From assembly GCA_023251075.1 (NCBI GenBank), contig JAHEZM010000017.1, forward strand, positions 1 to 64,000: 64,000 bases of DNA, read 5' to 3'. The DNA is from Flavobacteriales bacterium. Lineage in GTDB: Bacteria > Bacteroidota > Bacteroidia > Flavobacteriales_C > GCA-002722245. This document shows, piece by piece, positions 13,629-25,204 of the stretch (its first letter is position 1; every line of letters starts with the position of its first letter). The position numbers and the translations under genes are program-made. The notes beneath the pieces are model-generated. The model ran no database searches, was not told the DNA's origin, and saw only the letters and a program-made list of their open reading frames with translations.

Positions 13629-15632
13629 ATGCGCAATTTTATACTCTATATTATTCCCGTTGCGTTGTTGTTGGTGATTTTCGTGAATTTTTTTATTGGT
13701 GAACCAAAGTTTAATTCATTGGAGGAAGAAGAGATTCATTATTTGCAAAGCGAAGATTATGAAAAACAGGAACATTTTTATGGTGGCCTTTTACAAAAAG
13801 ATACTTTCAACATATATTATCATTTCAATTTAGTAACAGCCCATTTTAATCGCGATAATGAAGTGTCTCAGGAATTGGGTAAAAACATTAGTATTGCCGA
13901 TGATTCTGTACAAATTTATTATCGTTCATTTTTGCTGCGTTCCTCTATTATAGCACAGGATATGGGGCATTTTGGATTGGGCATGTATTATTATAAAACC
14001 GATCAGTTTGATTCGGCATACGCCAATTTCAAGCAAATTGTAAATCCCGAATTACCTTATTTAAATTATATGTTCGGTTGCGTTTTTATGCAAAACGATT
14101 CTTTGTTGGCTTCTCAGTATTTTGAAGATGAAATTGCCAATGATGGTTATTTGGAAGGCGCCTATAAGGGATTGATAGAACTAAATCTTGACAATATAGA
14201 TGAGCTGTATCGTTTGGCAACCAATGAGCATAGTTCTCCTTACATGAGTGTTTATGTGAAACGGAAAGTGTTTTTTAATAAGGGTGATTTGAGAGCTTAT
14301 TTTAAATCTATTTTTGAGCGTTTTCTTAAAGCGTTCAATGTATATGGGTTTGGTGGTGCCTTGCTTATTTTATTGGTTTGGCTAAATTATTTGGTGAAAT
14401 TAGATTTTTATCAAAAAGAGCGGTGGCGGCCTATAATCATCACTTTGTTTTTGGCAATGCCCTTTGCATTTCTAACTTCTTATTTCAGTGATTACCTGAA
14501 ATTTTCCTGGCATTTTACTTTGAATGGAGAGTTGCTGCACGATTTGTTTTATTGTGTAGTAGGTATTGGGTTGGTGGAAGAGATGATTAAAATTATTCCT
14601 TTTCTTTTGGTGCTCAAATGGGGGAAGGTAATTAAAGAACCTATTGATTATATTATTTACTCGTCTGTTTCGGCTTTGGGATTTGCCTTTATTGAAAATA
14701 TTTTCTACTTCGATTTAGGGGGCTTGCAACGTATTCAGGGAAGAGCAATTTCCGCAGTCATTATTCATTTATTCAATTCTTCTTTGATAGCTTATGCAAT
14801 GGTGTTGGGGAAATATATTCCTAAATATCAACAATGGAAAACATTTATTATAGGTTTGGCTGTGGTTGCTGTGTGGCACGGCTTTTATGATTTTTGGCTG
14901 ATCAATCAAACAGCAAGTAAGTTTAGCATGATTACTTTCTTTCAATTGCTGATAGGCATGTTTGTATGGTCGTCGATGATCAACAACTGCATGAACAATT
15001 CTTCGAATTTCGAACGATCGGAACATTACGATCCTAGAACTTTAAATGATTATTTACTTTACGGATTGTCTTTTGTTTTTATGTTTGAATACATTGTAGT
15101 GTCGTTGCAATATGGTGCATCCAGTGCCAATAAAATATTAATAAGCGATGCTTTACAGGGCTCATTTTTGTTGGTGTTTTTAACTTTTAGTTTAAGTAAA
15201 TTTGATATAATTAGGCATTATTGGGCGCCCATTTCATTTTGGGATTGGCATACTCTTATTAATAGTCATCGCATTCATCCGCAGTATTTCAATTTAAAAG
15301 AAATCATCGGCCAAAATATTGAAATTTCGGTGTTTCGTGAAGAGAGTTTATTGAAAGAGACCTTGCCGGTAAATGGGGTTATCCAATCTCGTGAATTGAT
15401 TTCGTGGGAAAAAGATTGGTATTTTGTGAAACTCAATAAGCCAATTCTAATTGGCGAAACTCAATACCATCAAATACTAATTAAGGCAAAAGAAATCAAT
15501 GAAATAATTTTATCAAAACCAAGGCAAATAGTCAATGTACGAGGGGTAAGCAATGAATTGCTTTTGTTCGAAAAAAAGAAAACAAAAACGGATTTTCCTT
15601 TCTTAGATTATGCAGTAATTTTCAAATGCTAA
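13629..15632 (+). CDS. PrsW-family intramembrane metalloprotease with large N- and C-terminal extensions
   Basis: A 667-residue membrane protein. The central region (about residues 220-460) has the PrsW/CAAX-type features: GLVEEMIK with the Glu-Glu pair, ALGFAFIENIFYF, HLFNSSLIAYAM and AVWHGFYDF, each in or near a transmembrane helix. An N-terminal signal-anchor is followed by a tetratricopeptide-like extracytoplasmic part (about 30-200). About 130 C-terminal residues after the last helices are unassigned. In Bacillus PrsW cleaves an anti-sigma factor; no such target gene is nearby here. Probably monocistronic, divergent from the TonB receptor. Confidence 0.75.
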   Translation: MRNFILYIIPVALLLVIFVNFFIGEPKFNSLEEEEIHYLQSEDYEKQEHFYGGLLQKDTFNIYYHFNLVTAHFNRDNEVSQELGKNISIADDSVQIYYRSFLLRSSIIAQDMGHFGLGMYYYKTDQFDSAYANFKQIVNPELPYLNYMFGCVFMQNDSLLASQYFEDEIANDGYLEGAYKGLIELNLDNIDELYRLATNEHSSPYMSVYVKRKVFFNKGDLRAYFKSIFERFLKAFNVYGFGGALLILLVWLNYLVKLDFYQKERWRPIIITLFLAMPFAFLTSYFSDYLKFSWHFTLNGELLHDLFYCVVGIGLVEEMIKIIPFLLVLKWGKVIKEPIDYIIYSSVSALGFAFIENIFYFDLGGLQRIQGRAISAVIIHLFNSSLIAYAMVLGKYIPKYQQWKTFIIGLAVVAVWHGFYDFWLINQTASKFSMITFFQLLIGMFVWSSMINNCMNNSSNFERSEHYDPRTLNDYLLYGLSFVFMFEYIVVSLQYGASSANKILISDALQGSFLLVFLTFSLSKFDIIRHYWAPISFWDWHTLINSHRIHPQYFNLKEIIGQNIEISVFREESLLKETLPVNGVIQSRELISWEKDWYFVKLNKPILIGETQYHQILIKAKEINEIILSKPRQIVNVRGVSNELLLFEKKKTKTDFPFLDYAVIFKC

Positions 15633-16873: not shown

Positions 16874-17749
16874 CTACGGGAGGAGAAATTCTTCAATGAA
16901 CTTTTTACTTCCTTCTTTATTTAAATGATCGGCATCCATTAACAGTTGATCGTAATTTGTTGAAGTTCTCCAGATCGTAATTTTTCTTTCGGCAGCCAAT
17001 CCTTTCATATTGGCTTTAAAAAATGCATTTATCTTTTCTTCGTATTGATGGTGAGTAGGTGTTTTAAAGAGAATGAGTGAAATATTATTTTTAGCACAAA
17101 AAACAATAATACTGTCGAGGTACATTACATTGATATTACTCACTAAAACACTGTCGCCAAAATTTTTGGTTAGTGTTTTTTCTATGTTTGTTTTATCATT
17201 ACTCCAATTGGGTTCTTCTGTGTAAGGGTTGTTTTTTGCATTTTTAAATCCCAATAAATCGTGGAAAAAAGATTTCTCATCTTTATGTAATTCTATTGGT
17301 ATTTGTACTTTTTTGGAATAATAGTAGTTTTTAATATAAGTACTGTGAAGATGTTTTTTGAAAAAATATTCAGGTGTTATTTTTCTATAGCGGTTAATCA
17401 TTTCAATAATTTTCTCCTCATCGTTTAAATTTCTTTCCCACACTTTTGCAAAGTTATGTTCACCAACACTTAGGTAAACTTTGTTGAGAAGAGAGTTGTT
17501 TTCTTTCAGTGCTTTTAATTTGAAATAGGTGAATGGGTAGAGTTCTGCGGTTTGGGCAAAGTTCGCTATTGAATCGTTTTTCAATGCATTGAAAGCAAAT
17601 AAAGCATGTGAGTCTCCCAAAATAACAGTGTTTTGTTTTTTAGTCAATTGTAAATAATTGTCCCCGCTATTTTCACTAATCCACCAATGAATAACAATTC
17701 CCTCCACTATTAAGAAAATCAATATCCATATGATGTTATACTTCTTCAC
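16874..17749 (-). CDS. Membrane-anchored protein with a GDSx motif, partner of the MBOAT acyltransferase
   Basis: A 291-residue protein with one N-terminal transmembrane segment (IIWILIFLIVEGIVIHWWI) and a GDSHALFAFN motif near residue 47 that recalls the SGNH/AlgJ/DltD-type proteins which accompany MBOAT transferases. A possible His partner is the Asp-x-x-His near the C-terminus (DADHLN). Its start overlaps the last base of the MBOAT gene, so the two are translationally coupled. Inference: it completes acyl transfer to an envelope or exported glycan. The acceptor is unknown. Confidence 0.6.
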   Translation of the reverse strand: MKKYNIIWILIFLIVEGIVIHWWISENSGDNYLQLTKKQNTVILGDSHALFAFNALKNDSIANFAQTAELYPFTYFKLKALKENNSLLNKVYLSVGEHNFAKVWERNLNDEEKIIEMINRYRKITPEYFFKKHLHSTYIKNYYYSKKVQIPIELHKDEKSFFHDLLGFKNAKNNPYTEEPNWSNDKTNIEKTLTKNFGDSVLVSNINVMYLDSIIVFCAKNNISLILFKTPTHHQYEEKINAFFKANMKGLAAERKITIWRTSTNYDQLLMDADHLNKEGSKKFIEEFLLP

Positions 17750-19128
17750 TAGAATTGAAAATAAATAAATTGTTCAGAAGAAAATACTCCAAAGAAATAC
17801 AATAAGTTGATGCAAATAAGCAATACTATTATTCTAAAAAAGGTAGAGCTGTTTTCGAAAAATAATTTGCTTTTAGTCCTCATCAAATAAATGTCGCAAA
17901 ACAAAAGAAAAGCAATGGATATAAAGCTGATAAGTAAATCGAGTTTAGTAAAGTTTTTAGTGAAGCCGGTAACTGGTCCTCCCTGTGTTAGTTGAGAAAA
18001 TGTCGTTATTGCATCGTGTATAGAATTGGCTTTGAAAAATATCCATAGTAGAGAAACTGCAATAAAAACAACAATACCTTTTAAGAAATTCATTCCTTTA
18101 TTTTGTGTTGGCGGAGGTGAAATAAAATGTTCAATAATCATTAAACTTCCATGCAGTAAACCCCAAAGTATGAAAGTCCAATTGGCGCCATGCCACAATC
18201 CACTTATCGCAAAAACAATTAAAATATTATAAGCGTATCTCCATGCTACAACTCTGTTTCCACCTAAGGGGAAATACACGTAATCTTTAAACCACGAGGA
18301 AAGAGAGATGTGCCAGCGGGTCCAGAATTCTTTTATAGAAGTAGAAAAATACGGACGATCAAAATTTTTCATTAAAGAAATACCAAAGCAAAGTGCTACA
18401 CCTGTTGCTATATCAGTATACCCTGAAAAGTCGCAATAAATTTGAAAACTGAAAAGTAGAGTAGAGAGCCATGAATCTCCACCGGTGTAGATTTCCGGAT
18501 TTTCAAAAAAGTGTGTCACAAAAATTCCTACGCGATCGGCAATGACCAGCTTTTTAAAAAATCCCCAAATCATTAAATTGCAACCCAGTACTAAGTTTTC
18601 ATATGTTACGGGGGTGTTTTTTCGCAGTTGAGGCAATAGAGTATAGGATCGTTCAATGGGGCCAGCTACCAATTGTGGAAAGAAAGAATGATACAAAGCA
18701 AAATATCCAAAATGTTTTTCTACAGGATGATTTCCTCTATACACATCAATAGTATAACCCAATGTTTGTAAAGTATAAAATGAAATCCCAACAGGTAAAA
18801 TAATATCAAATCCGATATCAAATCCTGCTTCCTTTTCGAAAAATGAAAAGTATTTAAAAAAGAAAATCGTAGCTAAATTACTTACGATACTAAGGGTGAG
18901 ATATAGTTTTCGTTGTTGTGTGTTTTTTGCGGAATCAATAGCAATTGCAAGGTAGTAAGCTAAAACAGTTGAACCGAATAAAAGAAAGAAATACCAAGGT
19001 TCGTAATAGGCGTAAAAGGCGTAGCTGGCTGCGAGTAATATCACCCATCTGTAATTTGCCGAAGCAAACTGATAGAGCAATAAAGCGATTGGAAGAAAAA
19101 TAAAAAAGTCGAGTGAGTTGAATAGCAT
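17749..19128 (-). CDS. MBOAT-family membrane-bound O-acyltransferase (AlgI/DltB-like)
   Basis: A 459-residue multi-spanning protein with the MBOAT core: PQLVAGPIERSYTLLPQL, YFSTSIKEFWTRWHISLSSW and the catalytic-His motif ISGLWHGANWTFILWGLLHG. These proteins move acyl groups across the membrane to alginate, teichoic acid or exopolysaccharide. The overlapping downstream gene with the GDS motif supports an AlgI-AlgJ-like pair. Its ATG at 19128 lies opposite the region just upstream of the divergent SGNH hydrolase gene. Confidence 0.88.
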   Translation of the reverse strand: MLFNSLDFFIFLPIALLLYQFASANYRWVILLAASYAFYAYYEPWYFFLLFGSTVLAYYLAIAIDSAKNTQQRKLYLTLSIVSNLATIFFFKYFSFFEKEAGFDIGFDIILPVGISFYTLQTLGYTIDVYRGNHPVEKHFGYFALYHSFFPQLVAGPIERSYTLLPQLRKNTPVTYENLVLGCNLMIWGFFKKLVIADRVGIFVTHFFENPEIYTGGDSWLSTLLFSFQIYCDFSGYTDIATGVALCFGISLMKNFDRPYFSTSIKEFWTRWHISLSSWFKDYVYFPLGGNRVVAWRYAYNILIVFAISGLWHGANWTFILWGLLHGSLMIIEHFISPPPTQNKGMNFLKGIVVFIAVSLLWIFFKANSIHDAITTFSQLTQGGPVTGFTKNFTKLDLLISFISIAFLLFCDIYLMRTKSKLFFENSSTFFRIIVLLICINLLYFFGVFSSEQFIYFQF

Positions 19129-19169
19129 TGCTGCGTATCTTTGTAGTAAATGTATTAAATTGCAAGCAG

Positions 19170-19886
19170 ATGCAAAAAATTATACTCAATATCTCTGTAG
19201 CTCTGAATTTATTGCTCATTGTTGCTGCAATTACGTTTGTAGTGAGAAAAGGTGGTAGTGATTATGTTGTAAGTAAATTCAGTGCACCGAAGGAATTACC
19301 ACTTCCTTACAATTATTACAATTTCAAAAATCAATACCAATCATATCAAAGCAACGACAGCATGATTATTTTTCTAGGAAATAGCTTAACTCAGTATTGT
19401 GAGTGGCACGAATTATTGAAACGCAACGATATTCTTAACAGGGGGATAGGAGGGGAGAGAACTGATCTTTTGCTGGCCAGACTGGATGAAGTTACCACTA
19501 GAAATCCAAGTAAGATTTTTTTGGAAATAGGAATCAATGATATTATTCACAAGGTGGATGAAAAAACTATTATTGAAAACTACGAAACTATCGTTTATGA
19601 ATTAACTCATAAATGCAAAGCCAAAGTTTATTTGTATGCTATATTTCCGGTGAATCTTGATATGCGATCGGAAAATTACCCTCCTATCGATACCCGAAAA
19701 ATTTCGACCATTAATTCAGCTATTCAATCAATTGCCAAAGAATATTCTTGTGAATATCTTGATTTGCGGCCTGTTTTGACGGATGAGAGAGGGCTTTTAA
19801 AAGCCGAGTTTACTTATGATGGTTTGCACCTCAATGGTGAAGGCTATGATGTTTGGGCTAAGTTTTTAGAGAAATATATTCAATAA
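19170..19886 (+). CDS. SGNH/GDSL-family hydrolase, membrane-anchored or secreted
   Basis: A 238-residue protein with an N-terminal hydrophobic segment (residues 2-24) and all four SGNH blocks: FLGNSLTQ (nucleophile Ser), NRGIGGERT, EIGINDI and DGLHLNGEGYDVW with the Asp-His pair. Probably an acetylesterase or acyltransferase acting on a glycan outside the cytoplasm. I chose the ATG at 19170, which puts the hydrophobic segment at the very N-terminus; the longer frame from 19128 has a TTG-like start inside the divergent gene's start region. It stands next to the MBOAT pair, so all three may work on the same glycan. Confidence 0.8.
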   Translation: MQKIILNISVALNLLLIVAAITFVVRKGGSDYVVSKFSAPKELPLPYNYYNFKNQYQSYQSNDSMIIFLGNSLTQYCEWHELLKRNDILNRGIGGERTDLLLARLDEVTTRNPSKIFLEIGINDIIHKVDEKTIIENYETIVYELTHKCKAKVYLYAIFPVNLDMRSENYPPIDTRKISTINSAIQSIAKEYSCEYLDLRPVLTDERGLLKAEFTYDGLHLNGEGYDVWAKFLEKYIQ

Positions 19887-19984: not shown

Positions 19985-20506
19985 TTGAAAAACAATCGAC
20001 TCAAATATCTTCTGCCTTTTGCTGTAATCTTTGTGCTTGCGGGGAATTATATACAAAGTATTCTCACTACTGTTCAGGTTTTGTTTTTAATTAAACCAGT
20101 AAGTTTTTTGGTGGGTGAGTTTTTGGGAGTTACCTTTTCTTATTCTGATGTTGCCGGGTTTTTATGCAATGAATATCCTATTGCTATTGAGAAAAGTTGT
20201 TCTGGCTTTACGTTTTTCACTATGCTCATTTTATTGGGCATCGTAACCTATTTCTTGTTTTCTGAAAGTGTGAATCTTAAAAAAAGTATTCGCTCTGTTT
20301 CATTGGTTCTTTTATTTTCTTACCTCTTTACCTTGCTGGTTAATTCAATTCGGATTATTACAGGCATTAAGTTGCAAATATTTTCACTAGCCCATTCATG
20401 GTTCCCTAATCATATCGTTCACGAATTGATGGGGGTGTTGTATTTCTTATTGAGTATGGTGCTTTTTTACACAATGGTTAAAAATCAAAAATCAAAAATT
20501 TGTTGA
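19985..20506 (+). CDS. xrtK: Exosortase K-like transmembrane sorting enzyme
   Basis: A 173-residue membrane protein with about five hydrophobic segments. Exosortase catalytic residues are recognisable: Cys72 in KSCSGFTFF, Arg123 in VNSIRIITG and a His in the NHIVHELMG segment (143 or 146). Exosortases cut and re-attach proteins carrying a C-terminal sorting tail. The identity as exosortase K rests on the next gene, which has the MSEP-CTERM tail known to accompany that small subtype. No ATG exists before the catalytic region, so translation must begin at the TTG at 19985. The gene is one base from its partner. Confidence 0.82.
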   Translation: MKNNRLKYLLPFAVIFVLAGNYIQSILTTVQVLFLIKPVSFLVGEFLGVTFSYSDVAGFLCNEYPIAIEKSCSGFTFFTMLILLGIVTYFLFSESVNLKKSIRSVSLVLLFSYLFTLLVNSIRIITGIKLQIFSLAHSWFPNHIVHELMGVLYFLLSMVLFYTMVKNQKSKIC

Positions 20507-20507
20507 T

Positions 20508-23294
20508 ATGGATCTTCTTAAAAAACCTTTTTGGTTATTTATTACTACTGTTTTACCGCAGCTTTTATTGCTGTATCTTTTTAGTGTTGCCTATGGTGTA
20601 ATAGAAACTTTGCTAGATGCCGAGCAAAAAGAGCAATGGGAGTTTTTTGGTGTTTATCTGCTTACGCTTTCTATTCTTTATTCTGCTTACGGTGCTATTC
20701 AGTGGGTGCGCAAACAACCTTTATCGATAGCTTTTGGATTTATCTCTCTATTGATTCATATTTTAAATATTACTCTTTTCTTCTATTTCAGTAATTCTTT
20801 TTTGCCTTTTGATATTCCTCAGTGGATGTACACTTCAGAAGATTTGGAAATTTATCCTTACGCTTTTCTGATGTTGGGTGCCATACACGCTCTAATTATT
20901 TTAGTGGTGCAATTTACCGATGAAGAGAAAATAGGCAAGTATGGGTTAAATCTGCTTTGGGCTTTTTGTATTCCTTTGTCAATTGTGGCTTTGGTATTGG
21001 TTTTTAATTTATTCGATTTGGATTACTTTGACCATTTGGGAAAATATGTTTTTCTCTATTTTTTTATTGCATCTACTTGTGTTTTCTTGTTTTTTATTTT
21101 TCGATTTGCCTTCATTTTTACTTTTTACCGAAAATCGAAAAATGATTCTATTTCGGTAATTAAGATTTTGATTTGCTTGATTTTTCCAATTGTTGGATTG
21201 TTGGTAAATGGAGGGTTTGGCAATTCTATTTCTGGAGGTATGTTTGGCACTTTTGATCATCCTTTGTACTTTATTATTGCGATTGTCAATGGAATTGTTT
21301 TATTGATTCCCAATCCCGAAAATAAAATGCTGCACTTGCTTTTATTTTTAGTTCGTTCTGTTTTCATGGTTTACGTACTTTATTTCTTCATGGTGTTTTT
21401 ACCTTGGTTGCCTTTGTCGTTGCTTGCCATAATATTTTTCGGATTGGGATTTTTAATGATGAGTCCGATTTTGATTTTTGCCTATCAGCTAAGTGCCATC
21501 AATACTGATTACAAAGATTTGCAACAACACTTTTCTAAACGATTATTAGCGACATTGTTTGTGATTTCCTTTTTAACTATTCCTATTGGTATTACTACGG
21601 ATTATATGAAGGATAGAGCCGAATTGGATAAGTGTTTGAACCATTTGTATGCCCGTTCTTATTTTGATGAGGTAGATAATGATTTTGATAAAGACAGAGT
21701 AGAACATTTGCTGGAGAAAGTTGGACAAATAAAAGAAGGAGTAATGAAGAATACGCCATTTTTGGATTCGTATTACAATTGGTTGGTGCTCGATAACCTT
21801 ATTTTATCAGATGCTAAATTGAAAGATTTACAAAATATTATTACAGGTACCCATTATATCTCTCAGCAACGTTGGTGGAATGGATCGTGGCGTTATCCCT
21901 CCGTAAATGCTAAAATAAAATCATCACAGATTGAAAGTAAATACGACGATAAATCAAAATTATGGAGAAGTACCTTGCATTTGAAATTGGGTACTGAAAA
22001 CCAGAATCAAGTAATGTTTAAGGGCTATTTGCGTATTCCGGAAGGGGCTTTTATCAGTAATTTTTATTTAGATATGCCGGAGGGTAAAAGGAAATTTGGA
22101 ATTTTAGCTGAAAAGAAAACGGCAAACTGGATTTTTAATAATATTGTGAAAACGCGGCGAGATCCGGCTATTCTTCAGGAAATTTCCCCTAATAATTTTT
22201 CGCTTTCTGTTTTTCCTGTATCTGAAAATTTAGTGCGTAGCACAGGAATTGAAATCATTCATAAAGAAGCAATTAAAATTCAACTCGATTCTTTGGAATT
22301 CAATTTGGGAAAGGCTATTGCTCCTGAAAATGCTGTGATTGATAAAGGCGACGTTCTTTATGTCACTAAGGAAGCTAAAAAAACTTTGAAAGAAGTTCAA
22401 CGAAAAATGCAAGTGAATATTTTGGTGGATTGGTCGAATGGCATCGATCCTAAAACGATTCTTCAATTGGCCAAAAAAGTAAATGAGCATTTTAAAAAAC
22501 GGGGAAATGAAATTCGGATTTTCGCAGTGAATCATAGTGAACATCTTTTGGGAAAAAATTGGGAAAATGAAATTTACACTATCGATTCTGTAGGTGGCTT
22601 TTTTCCTGAATACACTATGAAAAAGATATTGGCTCAAACTCATGTAAGTCATAGTGATTGTGCTCAGTTAATGGTGTTGGTAACAGAGAATTCAGCTACT
22701 GAAATTTTCTTGGAAGGAATGGATGATTTTGTTTTTGCATCGCCCGATGTACATCATTATTTCACCTATTCGCAGGGAGATGCTTTACAAAAAACGTCTT
22801 TTTTAACAGGAGAAAAAAGTGCATCGTCATTTCAAGAAATGAAGGTATCTAAAGTATTCCAATTGAATTGGGGAACTAAGAATTGGTATGTACCTAACGA
22901 TGGCCAATCTTCAGTAATTTGTAAGCATATTGCTTTAACAGCATTGACTTCAAAAAATCAGTGGGAGGAAGGTTTGGCAATGTTTCAGCGACAACAATAC
23001 AGAACGCTTTATCCTGAAACTGATATATGGTTGCAAACAGTAAAGAATAGTTTCAATTCACATTTATTATCGAAATACACTGCTTTCCTAGTGGTAGAAA
23101 CCGAAGCGCAAGAAAAGATGTTGTATCACAAACAAAAAGAAGTGCTCAATTCAGGCGAGCATTTGGATTTGGAAGAGAAAATTGAAAACATGTCGGAGCC
23201 TAGTATTTTGTGGTATGTGATTGTAGGAGGGGTGTTGATCTTATTGGTGTGGTGGTGGAAGACTAGAATTCTGGTGAAAGATTTGAATATATGA
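20508..23294 (+). CDS. MSEP-CTERM protein, probable sole substrate of exosortase K
   Basis: A 928-residue protein, the length typical of the MSEP-CTERM family. About ten transmembrane helices fill residues 1-370. A soluble part follows with a VIT-like stretch (YLRIPEGAFISNFYLDMP, GILAEKKTANWIF, KTRRDPAIL) and a vWA-like region after about residue 630. The C-terminus is a tripartite sorting signal: MSEP at 895-898, a hydrophobic helix (ILWYVIVGGVLILLVWWW) and basic residues. Established knowledge: this family is encoded next to exosortase K. Inference: XrtK cuts at MSEP. Why a polytopic protein should be sorted in this way is unknown. Confidence 0.85.
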   Translation: MDLLKKPFWLFITTVLPQLLLLYLFSVAYGVIETLLDAEQKEQWEFFGVYLLTLSILYSAYGAIQWVRKQPLSIAFGFISLLIHILNITLFFYFSNSFLPFDIPQWMYTSEDLEIYPYAFLMLGAIHALIILVVQFTDEEKIGKYGLNLLWAFCIPLSIVALVLVFNLFDLDYFDHLGKYVFLYFFIASTCVFLFFIFRFAFIFTFYRKSKNDSISVIKILICLIFPIVGLLVNGGFGNSISGGMFGTFDHPLYFIIAIVNGIVLLIPNPENKMLHLLLFLVRSVFMVYVLYFFMVFLPWLPLSLLAIIFFGLGFLMMSPILIFAYQLSAINTDYKDLQQHFSKRLLATLFVISFLTIPIGITTDYMKDRAELDKCLNHLYARSYFDEVDNDFDKDRVEHLLEKVGQIKEGVMKNTPFLDSYYNWLVLDNLILSDAKLKDLQNIITGTHYISQQRWWNGSWRYPSVNAKIKSSQIESKYDDKSKLWRSTLHLKLGTENQNQVMFKGYLRIPEGAFISNFYLDMPEGKRKFGILAEKKTANWIFNNIVKTRRDPAILQEISPNNFSLSVFPVSENLVRSTGIEIIHKEAIKIQLDSLEFNLGKAIAPENAVIDKGDVLYVTKEAKKTLKEVQRKMQVNILVDWSNGIDPKTILQLAKKVNEHFKKRGNEIRIFAVNHSEHLLGKNWENEIYTIDSVGGFFPEYTMKKILAQTHVSHSDCAQLMVLVTENSATEIFLEGMDDFVFASPDVHHYFTYSQGDALQKTSFLTGEKSASSFQEMKVSKVFQLNWGTKNWYVPNDGQSSVICKHIALTALTSKNQWEEGLAMFQRQQYRTLYPETDIWLQTVKNSFNSHLLSKYTAFLVVETEAQEKMLYHKQKEVLNSGEHLDLEEKIENMSEPSILWYVIVGGVLILLVWWWKTRILVKDLNI

Positions 23295-23848
23295 GATGGT
23301 ACCATTTAGTTTTTTTTGCACTTATTTTTTTAATAGGGTTGTATTTATACGTTGTTTCTACCTTTCTGGATAATGGAAGAAGTGTGGAAGAACTGAAGGA
23401 AACTTACAGCACTCATGAAAAGGATTTCGAAAAGTTGTATTACTCTTTTGTGCGCTTGTTGCCTAAAGATGGAGTGGAGTTATTGAGTTTTGAAGAAAAT
23501 GAGCAAGGTGTAGCTGAGATTGTGATAAAGAAATCGGGCCAAATAAAGAGAATAAACATAGATAAAGATTCCAAAGAATTAGAGCGTTTTATGTTTGATT
23601 ACGGATGGGATGAAGATAAATTTGAAATCATAGAGGATTTGCTTGATGAAATAGATTGTACTTCGATCTCTATTGAACAGATAAATGGTAAAAGGGTTGT
23701 TGATATTGGTCATGATGATAGAGGTTGGTGTTATTATTCTTATCAAATTCATGAATCTGATACGGAATCTCCTATAGGCAGAAGTATTCCAATTGGTAAT
23801 TCAATTTTTAGCAAAAGGGTTTTTATTGTCGGGGATTGTGCACTTTGA
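23291..23848 (+). CDS. Uncharacterised membrane-anchored protein, third gene of the xrtK operon
   Basis: A 185-residue protein with one N-terminal hydrophobic segment (residues 4-26) and an acidic soluble part rich in Asp and Glu. Two Cys (in DEIDCTSIS and the final GDCAL) and a DRGWCYY stretch are visible. No family recognised. Its ATG overlaps the stop of the MSEP-CTERM gene (ATGA), so it is almost certainly translated with it and may belong to the same system. Codon use is like its neighbours. Confidence 0.7.
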   Translation: MRWYHLVFFALIFLIGLYLYVVSTFLDNGRSVEELKETYSTHEKDFEKLYYSFVRLLPKDGVELLSFEENEQGVAEIVIKKSGQIKRINIDKDSKELERFMFDYGWDEDKFEIIEDLLDEIDCTSISIEQINGKRVVDIGHDDRGWCYYSYQIHESDTESPIGRSIPIGNSIFSKRVFIVGDCAL

Positions 23849-23970
23849 TTGTTTTTCTTCCATTCCTGTCAAATTTAGCGATAGCGTAACTTATCGGAAT
23901 TTTCTCTTCAAGCTTTCAGCTAAGTTGAAAACTTAACTGAATGAATTTAGTGCTGTAGTAGGTATTAATT

Positions 23971-24034
23971 CCAAATATACAAAATATTGCAAAATTGGAA
24001 TTTAGTCCAAATATGCAATATTTTGTATATTTGG
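23971..24034. repeat. Long inverted repeat upstream of the AAA/DUF4143 gene
   Basis: Perfect 21-base arms (23971-23991 and 24014-24034) beginning CCAAATATACAAAATATTGC, separated by 22 bases that hold a further TTGG/CCAA pair. It ends 15 bases before the ATG, so it would form a hairpin in the leader or serve as an operator. Its core resembles the palindrome after the gene. Confidence 0.85.
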
Positions 24035-24049
24035 ATTAAATATATCTTT

Positions 24050-25204
24050 ATGATACAACGTGTTTTAACCAAAGAGATACTTCAAACAGCTAAAGAATTC
24101 AAGGTTTTGTGTGTAACTGGTCCGCGTCAATCGGGTAAAACAACCTTATGCAAATTATTGTTTAAAGATAAGCCTTATGTTACTTTAGAAGATCCTGATG
24201 TGGCAGAAGAAGCAACAAAAGAGGGTAGAGCATTCTTGAATAAATTTCCAAAGGGAGCTGTTATCGATGAGGCGCAACGTGTTCCTTCCTTGTTTAATTA
24301 TTTACAAGGTATTGTAGACGCTAAAGGAAAAAATAATCAGTTTGTACTTACTGGCAGCAACAATTTTTTATTGCAACAAAGTATCTCTCAGTCGTTGGCA
24401 GGCAGAACCGCATATATTGAACTATTGCCTTTTAGTTGTAGCGAGTTAAGAAGCAGAATCGTGAAAAATGATGTTGTGGGTTCTTTGTTGTTGAATGGCT
24501 TTTATCCAGCTATTGTAACCAAAAAATCATCACCTGAAAGATGGCTGTCCAATTATATTAAAACTTATGTAGATAGAGATGTTCGTTTGTTGCGGAATAT
24601 TTCAAACGCTAATCTTTTCACTAAATTTTTAAAGCTGTGTGCTGGAAGAGCAGCACAAATTTTAAATATCAATTCCTTATCTATTGAAGTGGGCGTAGAC
24701 CACAAGACAATTCAGGCTTGGCTGGCTATTTTAGAAAGTAGTTATATCATTTTTTTATTGCAGCCTTATCATCAGAATTTCAATAAACGAATGATAAAAT
24801 CCCCAAAATTGTACTTTCATGATGTAGGCTTATTGTCACATTTGTTAGGGTTGAAATCTACATCGGCCATAGAGAAAAGCAGTTTTTACGGACATATTTT
24901 TGAAAATTTTATTGTTTCAGAAATTCGTAAAAATCGTTACAATAAAGAACAATCCGGTGAAATGTATTTTTTGAGAGACAGTTCGGGGAATGAAGTAGAT
25001 GTTATTTTAGAGAAAGACGGAGAATTGATTCCTGTTGAAATTAAGTCGGCCAAAAAAATAAATGCTTCCGATATCAAAAATTTAGCTTGGTTTCAAAAGG
25101 TATATCGTCAGCATGGTGGAATTATTTTGTATCGTGGTGATGTTGAGAAAACCTATGAAAATGCGGTAGAGCAAATGAATTGGAAGGCTGTTTGTGATTT
25201 GTGA
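24050..25204 (+). CDS. AAA-family ATPase with C-terminal DUF4143 domain
   Basis: A 384-residue protein. Walker A is GPRQSGKTTL near residues 23-32, and Walker B with catalytic Glu is AVIDEAQ near 72. A sensor-like TGSNNFLL follows. The C-terminal DUF4143 part includes FHDVGLLSHLLG and GHIFENFIVSEI, then GNEVDVILE...VEIKSAK, a restriction-endonuclease-like Asp/Glu-x-Lys arrangement. Such genes occur in many scattered copies in bacterial genomes and their role is unsettled. The ATG at 24050 is preferred; upstream in-frame codons lie inside the inverted repeat. Palindromes flank the gene on both sides and it has no evident operon partner. Confidence 0.85.
   Translation: MIQRVLTKEILQTAKEFKVLCVTGPRQSGKTTLCKLLFKDKPYVTLEDPDVAEEATKEGRAFLNKFPKGAVIDEAQRVPSLFNYLQGIVDAKGKNNQFVLTGSNNFLLQQSISQSLAGRTAYIELLPFSCSELRSRIVKNDVVGSLLLNGFYPAIVTKKSSPERWLSNYIKTYVDRDVRLLRNISNANLFTKFLKLCAGRAAQILNINSLSIEVGVDHKTIQAWLAILESSYIIFLLQPYHQNFNKRMIKSPKLYFHDVGLLSHLLGLKSTSAIEKSSFYGHIFENFIVSEIRKNRYNKEQSGEMYFLRDSSGNEVDVILEKDGELIPVEIKSAKKINASDIKNLAWFQKVYRQHGGIILYRGDVEKTYENAVEQMNWKAVCDL

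Follow-up and report, generated by a model that had tools for sequence, protein, structure and literature searches.

The exosortase K locus and its presumed client

We examined a 64,000-nt stretch of the Flavobacteriales bacterium assembly GCA_023251075.1 (contig JAHEZM010000017.1, positions 1 to 64,000; hereafter the window), in which a gene for exosortase K (xrtK) is separated by a single base (20507) from the gene of a large membrane protein with an MSEP-type C-terminal sorting tail (the MSEP-CTERM protein, here called the client), and in which a third open reading frame (ORF) starts within the stop of the client gene (an ATGA overlap at 23291-23294; Table 1). Exosortases are reportedly described in work by Haft from 2012. 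A preliminary description of the locus had pointed to a small exosortase-like protein with Cys, Arg and His, a 928-residue partner one base away whose tail runs from MSEP through a hydrophobic helix to a basic end, and a 185-residue anchored ORF; all three are confirmed here at the coordinates given, the last with its N-terminal hydrophobic stretch. Its view that the pairing is a described bioinformatic family also holds, since both proteins score over the curated NCBIfam cut-offs (TIGR04287 and TIGR04286). By these profile matches the window genes are further members of the existing NCBIfam exosortase K / MSEP-CTERM family; no study of XrtK/MSEP-CTERM was found in the literature searched, although the pair has been named.

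The three residues of the exosortase superfamily (Cys72, Arg123 and His146) are present in every aligned XrtK of the comparison set defined below. The structure model of XrtK has a predicted local distance difference test score (pLDDT) of 89.2 and a predicted template modelling score (pTM) of 0.83; it has no fold match in the PDB at E <= 0.001, and the XrtK sequence has no match there.

The AlphaFold2 model of the client, built with 49 sequences (pLDDT 86.3, pTM 0.84), has 11 helices up to residue 381 and short helices up to 446; these are followed by a beta-sandwich and an alpha/beta domain, then by a helical stretch, a linker, and a last helix. Hydropathy and charge pattern fit an N terminus inside, a part from residue 382 onward in the periplasm, and a positively charged C-terminal end. 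The MSEP motif sits in a modelled disordered linker (residues 889-899, pLDDT under 50) that is followed directly by the last helix, and its residues are strongly conserved among the 49 aligned rows: Pro898 in 49/49, Met895 in 47/49, and Glu897 in 46/49.

The partner had also been called VIT/vWA-like, which is borne out by the match to the VIT family (PF08487, 27.1 bits against a cut-off of 26.5) and by structural matches to vWA domains and to inter-alpha-inhibitor heavy chains. The top chains in a Foldseek search with the client model are those of inter-alpha-inhibitor heavy chain 1 (6fpy, 1.8e-07), and vWA chains align over about 130-156 residues inside client residues 627-797 in VIA-align. 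The same program aligns the client to 6fpy at Z 8.6 over 335 residues (466-870) with a root-mean-square deviation of 9.5, which means that the individual domains match those of 6fpy and their arrangement does not. No Pfam vWA match was found on the client, and a sequence search of the PDB returned a weak match to ITIH4. At the metal-ion-dependent adhesion site (MIDAS), Asp641 is kept in 47/49 rows and Ser643 in 45/49, and the third Ser in only 4/49 (it is Gly in the window protein); a VIT domain and a vWA fold were thus found in the client, and a complete MIDAS (DxSxS...) was not.

Table 1. Features of the xrtK locus, in window positions.
Feature	Position	Strand	Evidence
xrtK, exosortase K, 173 amino acids (aa), TTG start	19985..20506	+	TIGR04287 80.7 bits (curated cut-off 55); PF09721 32.4 (cut-off 25.7)
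XrtK catalytic-type residue codons: Cys72; Arg123; His146	20198..20200; 20351-20353; 20420-20422	+	alignment, 78/78
MSEP-CTERM protein, 928 aa, presumed sole XrtK client	20508..23294	+	TIGR04286 674.8 bits (curated cut-off 150); AlphaFold2 model
Client N-terminal membrane domain, 11 helices, residues 8-381	20529..21650	+	model helices; hydropathy, charge
Client beta-sandwich with VIT domain, residues 469-600	21912..22307	+	PF08487 at 507-573; model strands; inter-alpha-inhibitor heavy chain matches
Client vWA-like alpha/beta domain, incomplete MIDAS, residues 633-796	22404..22895	+	VIA-align Z up to 9.9
Client MSEP motif, residues 895-898, in disordered linker	23190..23201	+	low pLDDT; conservation
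Client C-terminal transmembrane helix and basic end of sorting tail, residues 900-927	23205..23288	+	model helix; positive charge
185-aa anchored protein, undescribed sporadic family	23291..23848	+	no NCBIfam/Pfam match

Pairing with XrtK, and a change of tail in Hymenobacter

We compared the window with 88 other client loci (89 rows in all: the window, L007-L014, and L016-L095), 8 of them from a draw of genomes of the class and 80 from named genomes; three pairs (L007/L018, L008/L069, and L010/L079) are apparently the same loci counted twice. The named-genome loci are the best 80 of 138 client relatives found with an alignment as query; a search of the named genomes with the single client protein gave no confirmed relative. 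The client is over its cut-off in 9 of the 395 class genomes drawn (the window's own genome included), and in none of 4 genomes of the same genus or 5 of the same family. Most of the best 80 of 138 relatives are from Bacteroidota, and Balneola, Elusimicrobia, Leptospiraceae, and Spirochaetia each appear as the title of one record; the XrtK-MSEP loci under the last three titles (L050, L056, and L061) lie in metagenome-assembled records, and may reflect transfer or wrong binning. In a few loci the client gene is found in two frames or as two matched stretches (L014/L015 of genome G177, L082, and L171 of genome G429), as a frameshift, a sequencing error or a real split would produce.

XrtK is found at the client locus in 78 of the 89 rows, so the pairing is not due to chance, and the window pair shares 26-38% identity with 8 relatives in one alignment (A1). 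In the commonest layout among the 78 the two genes share 17 nt; the outliers are a few spacings of 143-369 nt and a computed value of -454 for L082, where either the client gene is split or a start is oddly assigned. All but one of the 78 clients beside an XrtK end in M[S/T/A/D/P]EP, the remaining one (L085) being cut by a contig end. The 11 rows that have no XrtK at the locus comprise eight clients with a different, PID-type tail (see below), two at contig ends (L017 with MSEP, and L035 with MTEP), and L053, whose client ends in MTAP and whose genome has an XrtK elsewhere (L120, 120 bits).

One client per XrtK is the rule. A profile built from 37 MSEP tails, which include those of several of the 15 tested clients, had the client as its best match in 15/15 XrtK genomes (E from 1.3e-19 to 0.006), in agreement with the dedicated enzyme proposed earlier. 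The other matches began past the motif or late in it, except two that reach into it (E 0.30 in G405 and 0.59 in G000), and in 5 genomes that lack XrtK no match covered the motif.

The eight PID-type tails belong to seven named Hymenobacter loci and L009; the PID-CTERM model (NF046080) is over its cut-off in 6/8 of these tails, and each of the eight genomes has exactly one exosortase, which is exosortase X (XrtX). The window client has no NF046080 match, the PID tail being confined to its Hymenobacter relatives; no PID match over the cut-off was found in three Hymenobacter genomes that have XrtK as their sole exosortase (G404-G406). In 5 of 15 genomes searched (G395, G397, G398, G401, and G403), xrtX has a small PID-tagged ORF on its own strand no more than about 0.7 kb away, and since such ORFs adjoin xrtX, enzyme and tag appear to be paired, which suggests that XrtX reads PID tails.

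We then read the client tails in a set of 120 genomes from the genus of G191, which is probably Hymenobacter, judging by client tails identical to those of named Hymenobacter loci. The client occurs in 40 of these genomes, XrtK in 15, and XrtX in 83 (one below the cut-off). Every one of the 15 clients in XrtK-containing genomes ends in M[S/T]EP, and every one of the 25 in genomes that lack XrtK carries a P[I/L/V]D-type tail (in six of them P[I/L]D precedes an E or H; the other 19 fit the PxD pattern). XrtX is present in 24 of the 25 swapped genomes, in 4 of the 15 unswapped ones, and in 55 of the 80 genomes that have no client; the four genomes with both XrtK and XrtX keep the MSEP-type tail. 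Fisher values for the XrtX counts take no account of kinship and carry no weight as evidence. A quick tree built from client sequences trimmed of their tails, with SH-aLRT (an approximate likelihood-ratio test) as its only branch support, places the 25 swapped clients in one clade inside the MSEP-tailed ones with a support of 100, and they therefore represent one tag swap. A second swap was looked for in the 89 rows and in the genus set, and only this one was found.

Because the relatives that lack XrtK carry a PID-type tail, nearly all together with XrtX, the client tail is most likely a sorting signal. Most likely, too, the client keeps needing an exosortase even though the enzyme changes, so that the conserved need is that of the client and not of the enzyme. 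The Hymenobacter swap provides natural evidence for the tail as a processing signal, and is new beyond the known family.

The third gene and other neighbours

The preliminary description had further proposed that the 185-aa gene belongs to the system, and a search of xrtK neighbourhoods for homologues did not bear this out: none was found at the 88 other client loci (phmmer --max, E <= 1; no significant profile match), an absence that the description itself had named as refuting its proposal. Searches of NCBIfam and Pfam at E <= 1 gave no family for the protein, a sequence search of the PDB gave nothing credible, and it has no relative in 9 other genomes of the order. In the class draw (394 other genomes), the single sequence found 4 weak relatives and a profile found 8; none of these eight genomes is among the 8 other client-bearing genomes of the same 395-genome sample. 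As a core component the gene was rejected, given its absence from 88/88 other loci and the class-wide searches. Nor was a conserved downstream gene of any kind found at the client loci, and the clustering of neighbours gave instead a module that lies mostly upstream.

This module, obtained by clustering the neighbours of the 80 named loci, consists of a 209-aa membrane protein with no Pfam family over the cut-off (c2), found at 14/80 loci, and a winged-helix regulator of the HTH_34 family (c3), found by profile at all 14 of them, within about 6.5 kb of XrtK-MSEP (L019, L021, L028, L032, L037, L038, L046, L055, L058, L067, L070, L077, L082, and L086). Three of these loci are from Aquimarina, and Psychroserpens, Flavobacterium, and Pedobacter each contribute two, so that, given this kinship, the 14 loci amount to about seven independent cases. 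DUF4153, CreD or DUF1361 often accompany c2 and c3; CreD is directly upstream of XrtK in L021, L028, L070, and L082, and one ORF away in L038. In G005 (L191 1-6044, minus strand), which belongs to the same family as the window's genome, c2 and c3 precede a VIT protein of the exosortase N (XrtN) type, with a VPEP tail and 781 bits for TIGR04477, and an exosortase-like frame, which suggests that one regulatory module may serve two kinds of exosortase-VIT pair. Both c2 and c3 are absent from the 64-kb window (tblastn). The c2 and HTH_34 module offers better candidates for companions than the 185-aa gene.

Seven of the eight relatives of the 185-aa protein have neither c2 nor c3 in the stretch around them, and their neighbours, seen over about 1.5 kb, are unrelated to exosortases. 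The exception is G029 (L158 / L173), with the order hydratase, c2, 185-aa relative, c3; the Halpernia humi locus (L055) has hydratase (76% in comparison with G029), c2 (76%), XrtK, MSEP, and c3 (80%). The 185-aa family can therefore fill the slot of XrtK-MSEP, which keeps a weak link alive. It is this slot, together with the ATGA overlap in the window, that speaks for the gene as a true component lost or replaced in most lineages (for example, a periplasmic receptor of the processed client); against it stand its absence from all the other loci, the lack of any relative-bearing genome that has the client, and the seven relatives away from the module. We regard a true component as unlikely, and the data suggest that the 185-aa gene is a local passenger or a rare accessory.

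Other features of the window were noted around the locus. At the start of the next ORF (23987-25204), which by eye resembles a P-loop ATPase, there is a 37-nt inverted repeat (23963-24042, 89% complementary, with a 6-nt loop). The region upstream of xrtK (16874-19886) encodes an MBOAT acyltransferase, what may be an SGNH-type protein (with an E of only 0.12), and a GDSL lipase-like protein; this cluster is not common to other XrtK loci. Farther upstream, 13629-15632 encodes a membrane protein of 667 aa that carries a PrsW-type intramembrane protease domain (PF13367, 73.7 bits).

Proposed mechanism and comparison with known systems

We consider it probable that XrtK is a dedicated inner-membrane exosortase that trims the MSEP tail of its one client, and that the client needs this processing whichever exosortase acts. 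Once inserted, the client would have 11 helices in the membrane, expose a large VIT-vWA part to the periplasm, and finish in one more helix whose basic end lies in the cytoplasm; XrtK, which carries the Cys, Arg, and His, would recognise MSEP, the helix and the basic end, cut at the disordered linker, and remove the last helix. Both the enzyme family and the tag swap suggest cleavage at the linker. Since the 11 helices remain, such a cut could not release the client, and the far end of its periplasmic part would be freed or re-anchored. By analogy with archaeosortase A, the new C terminus would probably be handed to a lipid or glycan acceptor, and the client presumably acts in the cell envelope. 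One Hymenobacter lineage would have replaced XrtK and the MSEP tail by a PID tail together with XrtX.

Several points weigh against this proposal. No cleavage or attachment of the client is reported in the literature searched or shown here, a lipid or glycan acceptor is proposed purely by analogy, and the reading of PID tails by XrtX is a bioinformatic assignment. The swap is a single event, so that the 15/15 and 25/25 agreements are not 40 independent observations; two of the PID tails (L081 with 21.0 bits, and L089 with 21.9) are under the PID_CTERM cut-off of 26; and one swapped genome (G503, 90% complete, in about 600 contigs) has no XrtX match. The last three points would also fit a chance replacement of the gene end followed by drift after the loss of XrtK, with a PID-like tail that is not a working tag. 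Such drift seems improbable, given that all 25 swapped clients keep P-x-D, a hydrophobic stretch and a mostly basic end across a deep radiation, and that XrtX accompanies the swapped tails in 24/25 genomes as opposed to 4/15 MSEP-tailed ones. Still more doubtful is a role of the tail as membrane anchor only, with XrtK serving the client as chaperone or regulatory partner: no proteolysis is shown and the 11 helices already hold the client, so that removal of the last helix need not matter, but a plain anchor would not keep Pro898, Met895, and Glu897 nearly invariant or switch to the tag of another exosortase when XrtK is absent, and Cys, Arg, and His are kept in 78/78 XrtK.

Among known systems the closest is the exosortase K / MSEP-CTERM family itself: its cut-offs are passed, the genes are adjacent, and there is one tagged protein per genome; the window differs solely by its unshared third gene. 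In one Hymenobacter lineage the orthologous client seems to have passed to exosortase X / PID-CTERM (NF046081 / NF046080); XrtX belongs to another exosortase family, is not encoded beside the client, and has further small ORFs with tags. No paper on PID-CTERM was found in the literature searched. The exosortase N system (TIGR04476 / TIGR04477) likewise has an enzyme adjacent to a polytopic VIT protein that ends in a sorting tail, and this VIT protein is related to the MSEP-CTERM client over client residues 287-582 (hhalign probability 98.4); it differs in its VPEP tail, its client model of 822 positions, and its larger enzyme model (406 positions). To call a dedicated enzyme for one VIT/vWA protein odd, as the preliminary description did, is therefore too strong, since XrtN also has a dedicated VIT client, and so, by model name, does a proteobacterial sortase (TIGR03788); no report joining a sortase with a VIT domain was found in the literature searched.

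Archaeosortase A of Haloferax volcanii belongs to the same enzyme superfamily by model (TIGR04178), has a Cys active site and a tripartite C-terminal tag, and differs in having several clients; published work links it to the cleavage of its clients and to their anchoring by lipid (PMC7157517). In Flavobacterium johnsoniae, XrtF and the exosortase F system-associated protein form another two-gene exosortase pair in Bacteroidota, of different families, and in-frame deletions of the pair impaired surface colonisation (PMC10936215).

Inter-alpha-inhibitor heavy chain 1 (6fpy) has VIT and then vWA-like parts in the same order as the client, and differs in being secreted, in its complete MIDAS, and in having no exosortase. 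In the human heavy chain, removal of a C-terminal pro-domain goes together with ester linkage of the new C terminus to N-acetylgalactosamine (PMC7170535). The heavy-chain-like fold offers a concrete chemical hypothesis, as a lead for the chemistry and not a proof. As a speculative extension, which we rate as a long shot, the exosortase-VIT pairs (XrtK, XrtN, and, by the swap, XrtX) could be a bacterial counterpart of heavy-chain transfer: a heavy-chain-like VIT-vWA domain rooted in the inner membrane would lose its C-terminal tail, and its new C terminus would be joined covalently to a glycan or lipid of the envelope, so that membrane and envelope are stapled together, in some lineages with the c2 and HTH_34 module as regulator. 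If this were true, the repeated VIT clients would reflect a shared transfer chemistry, not coincidence.

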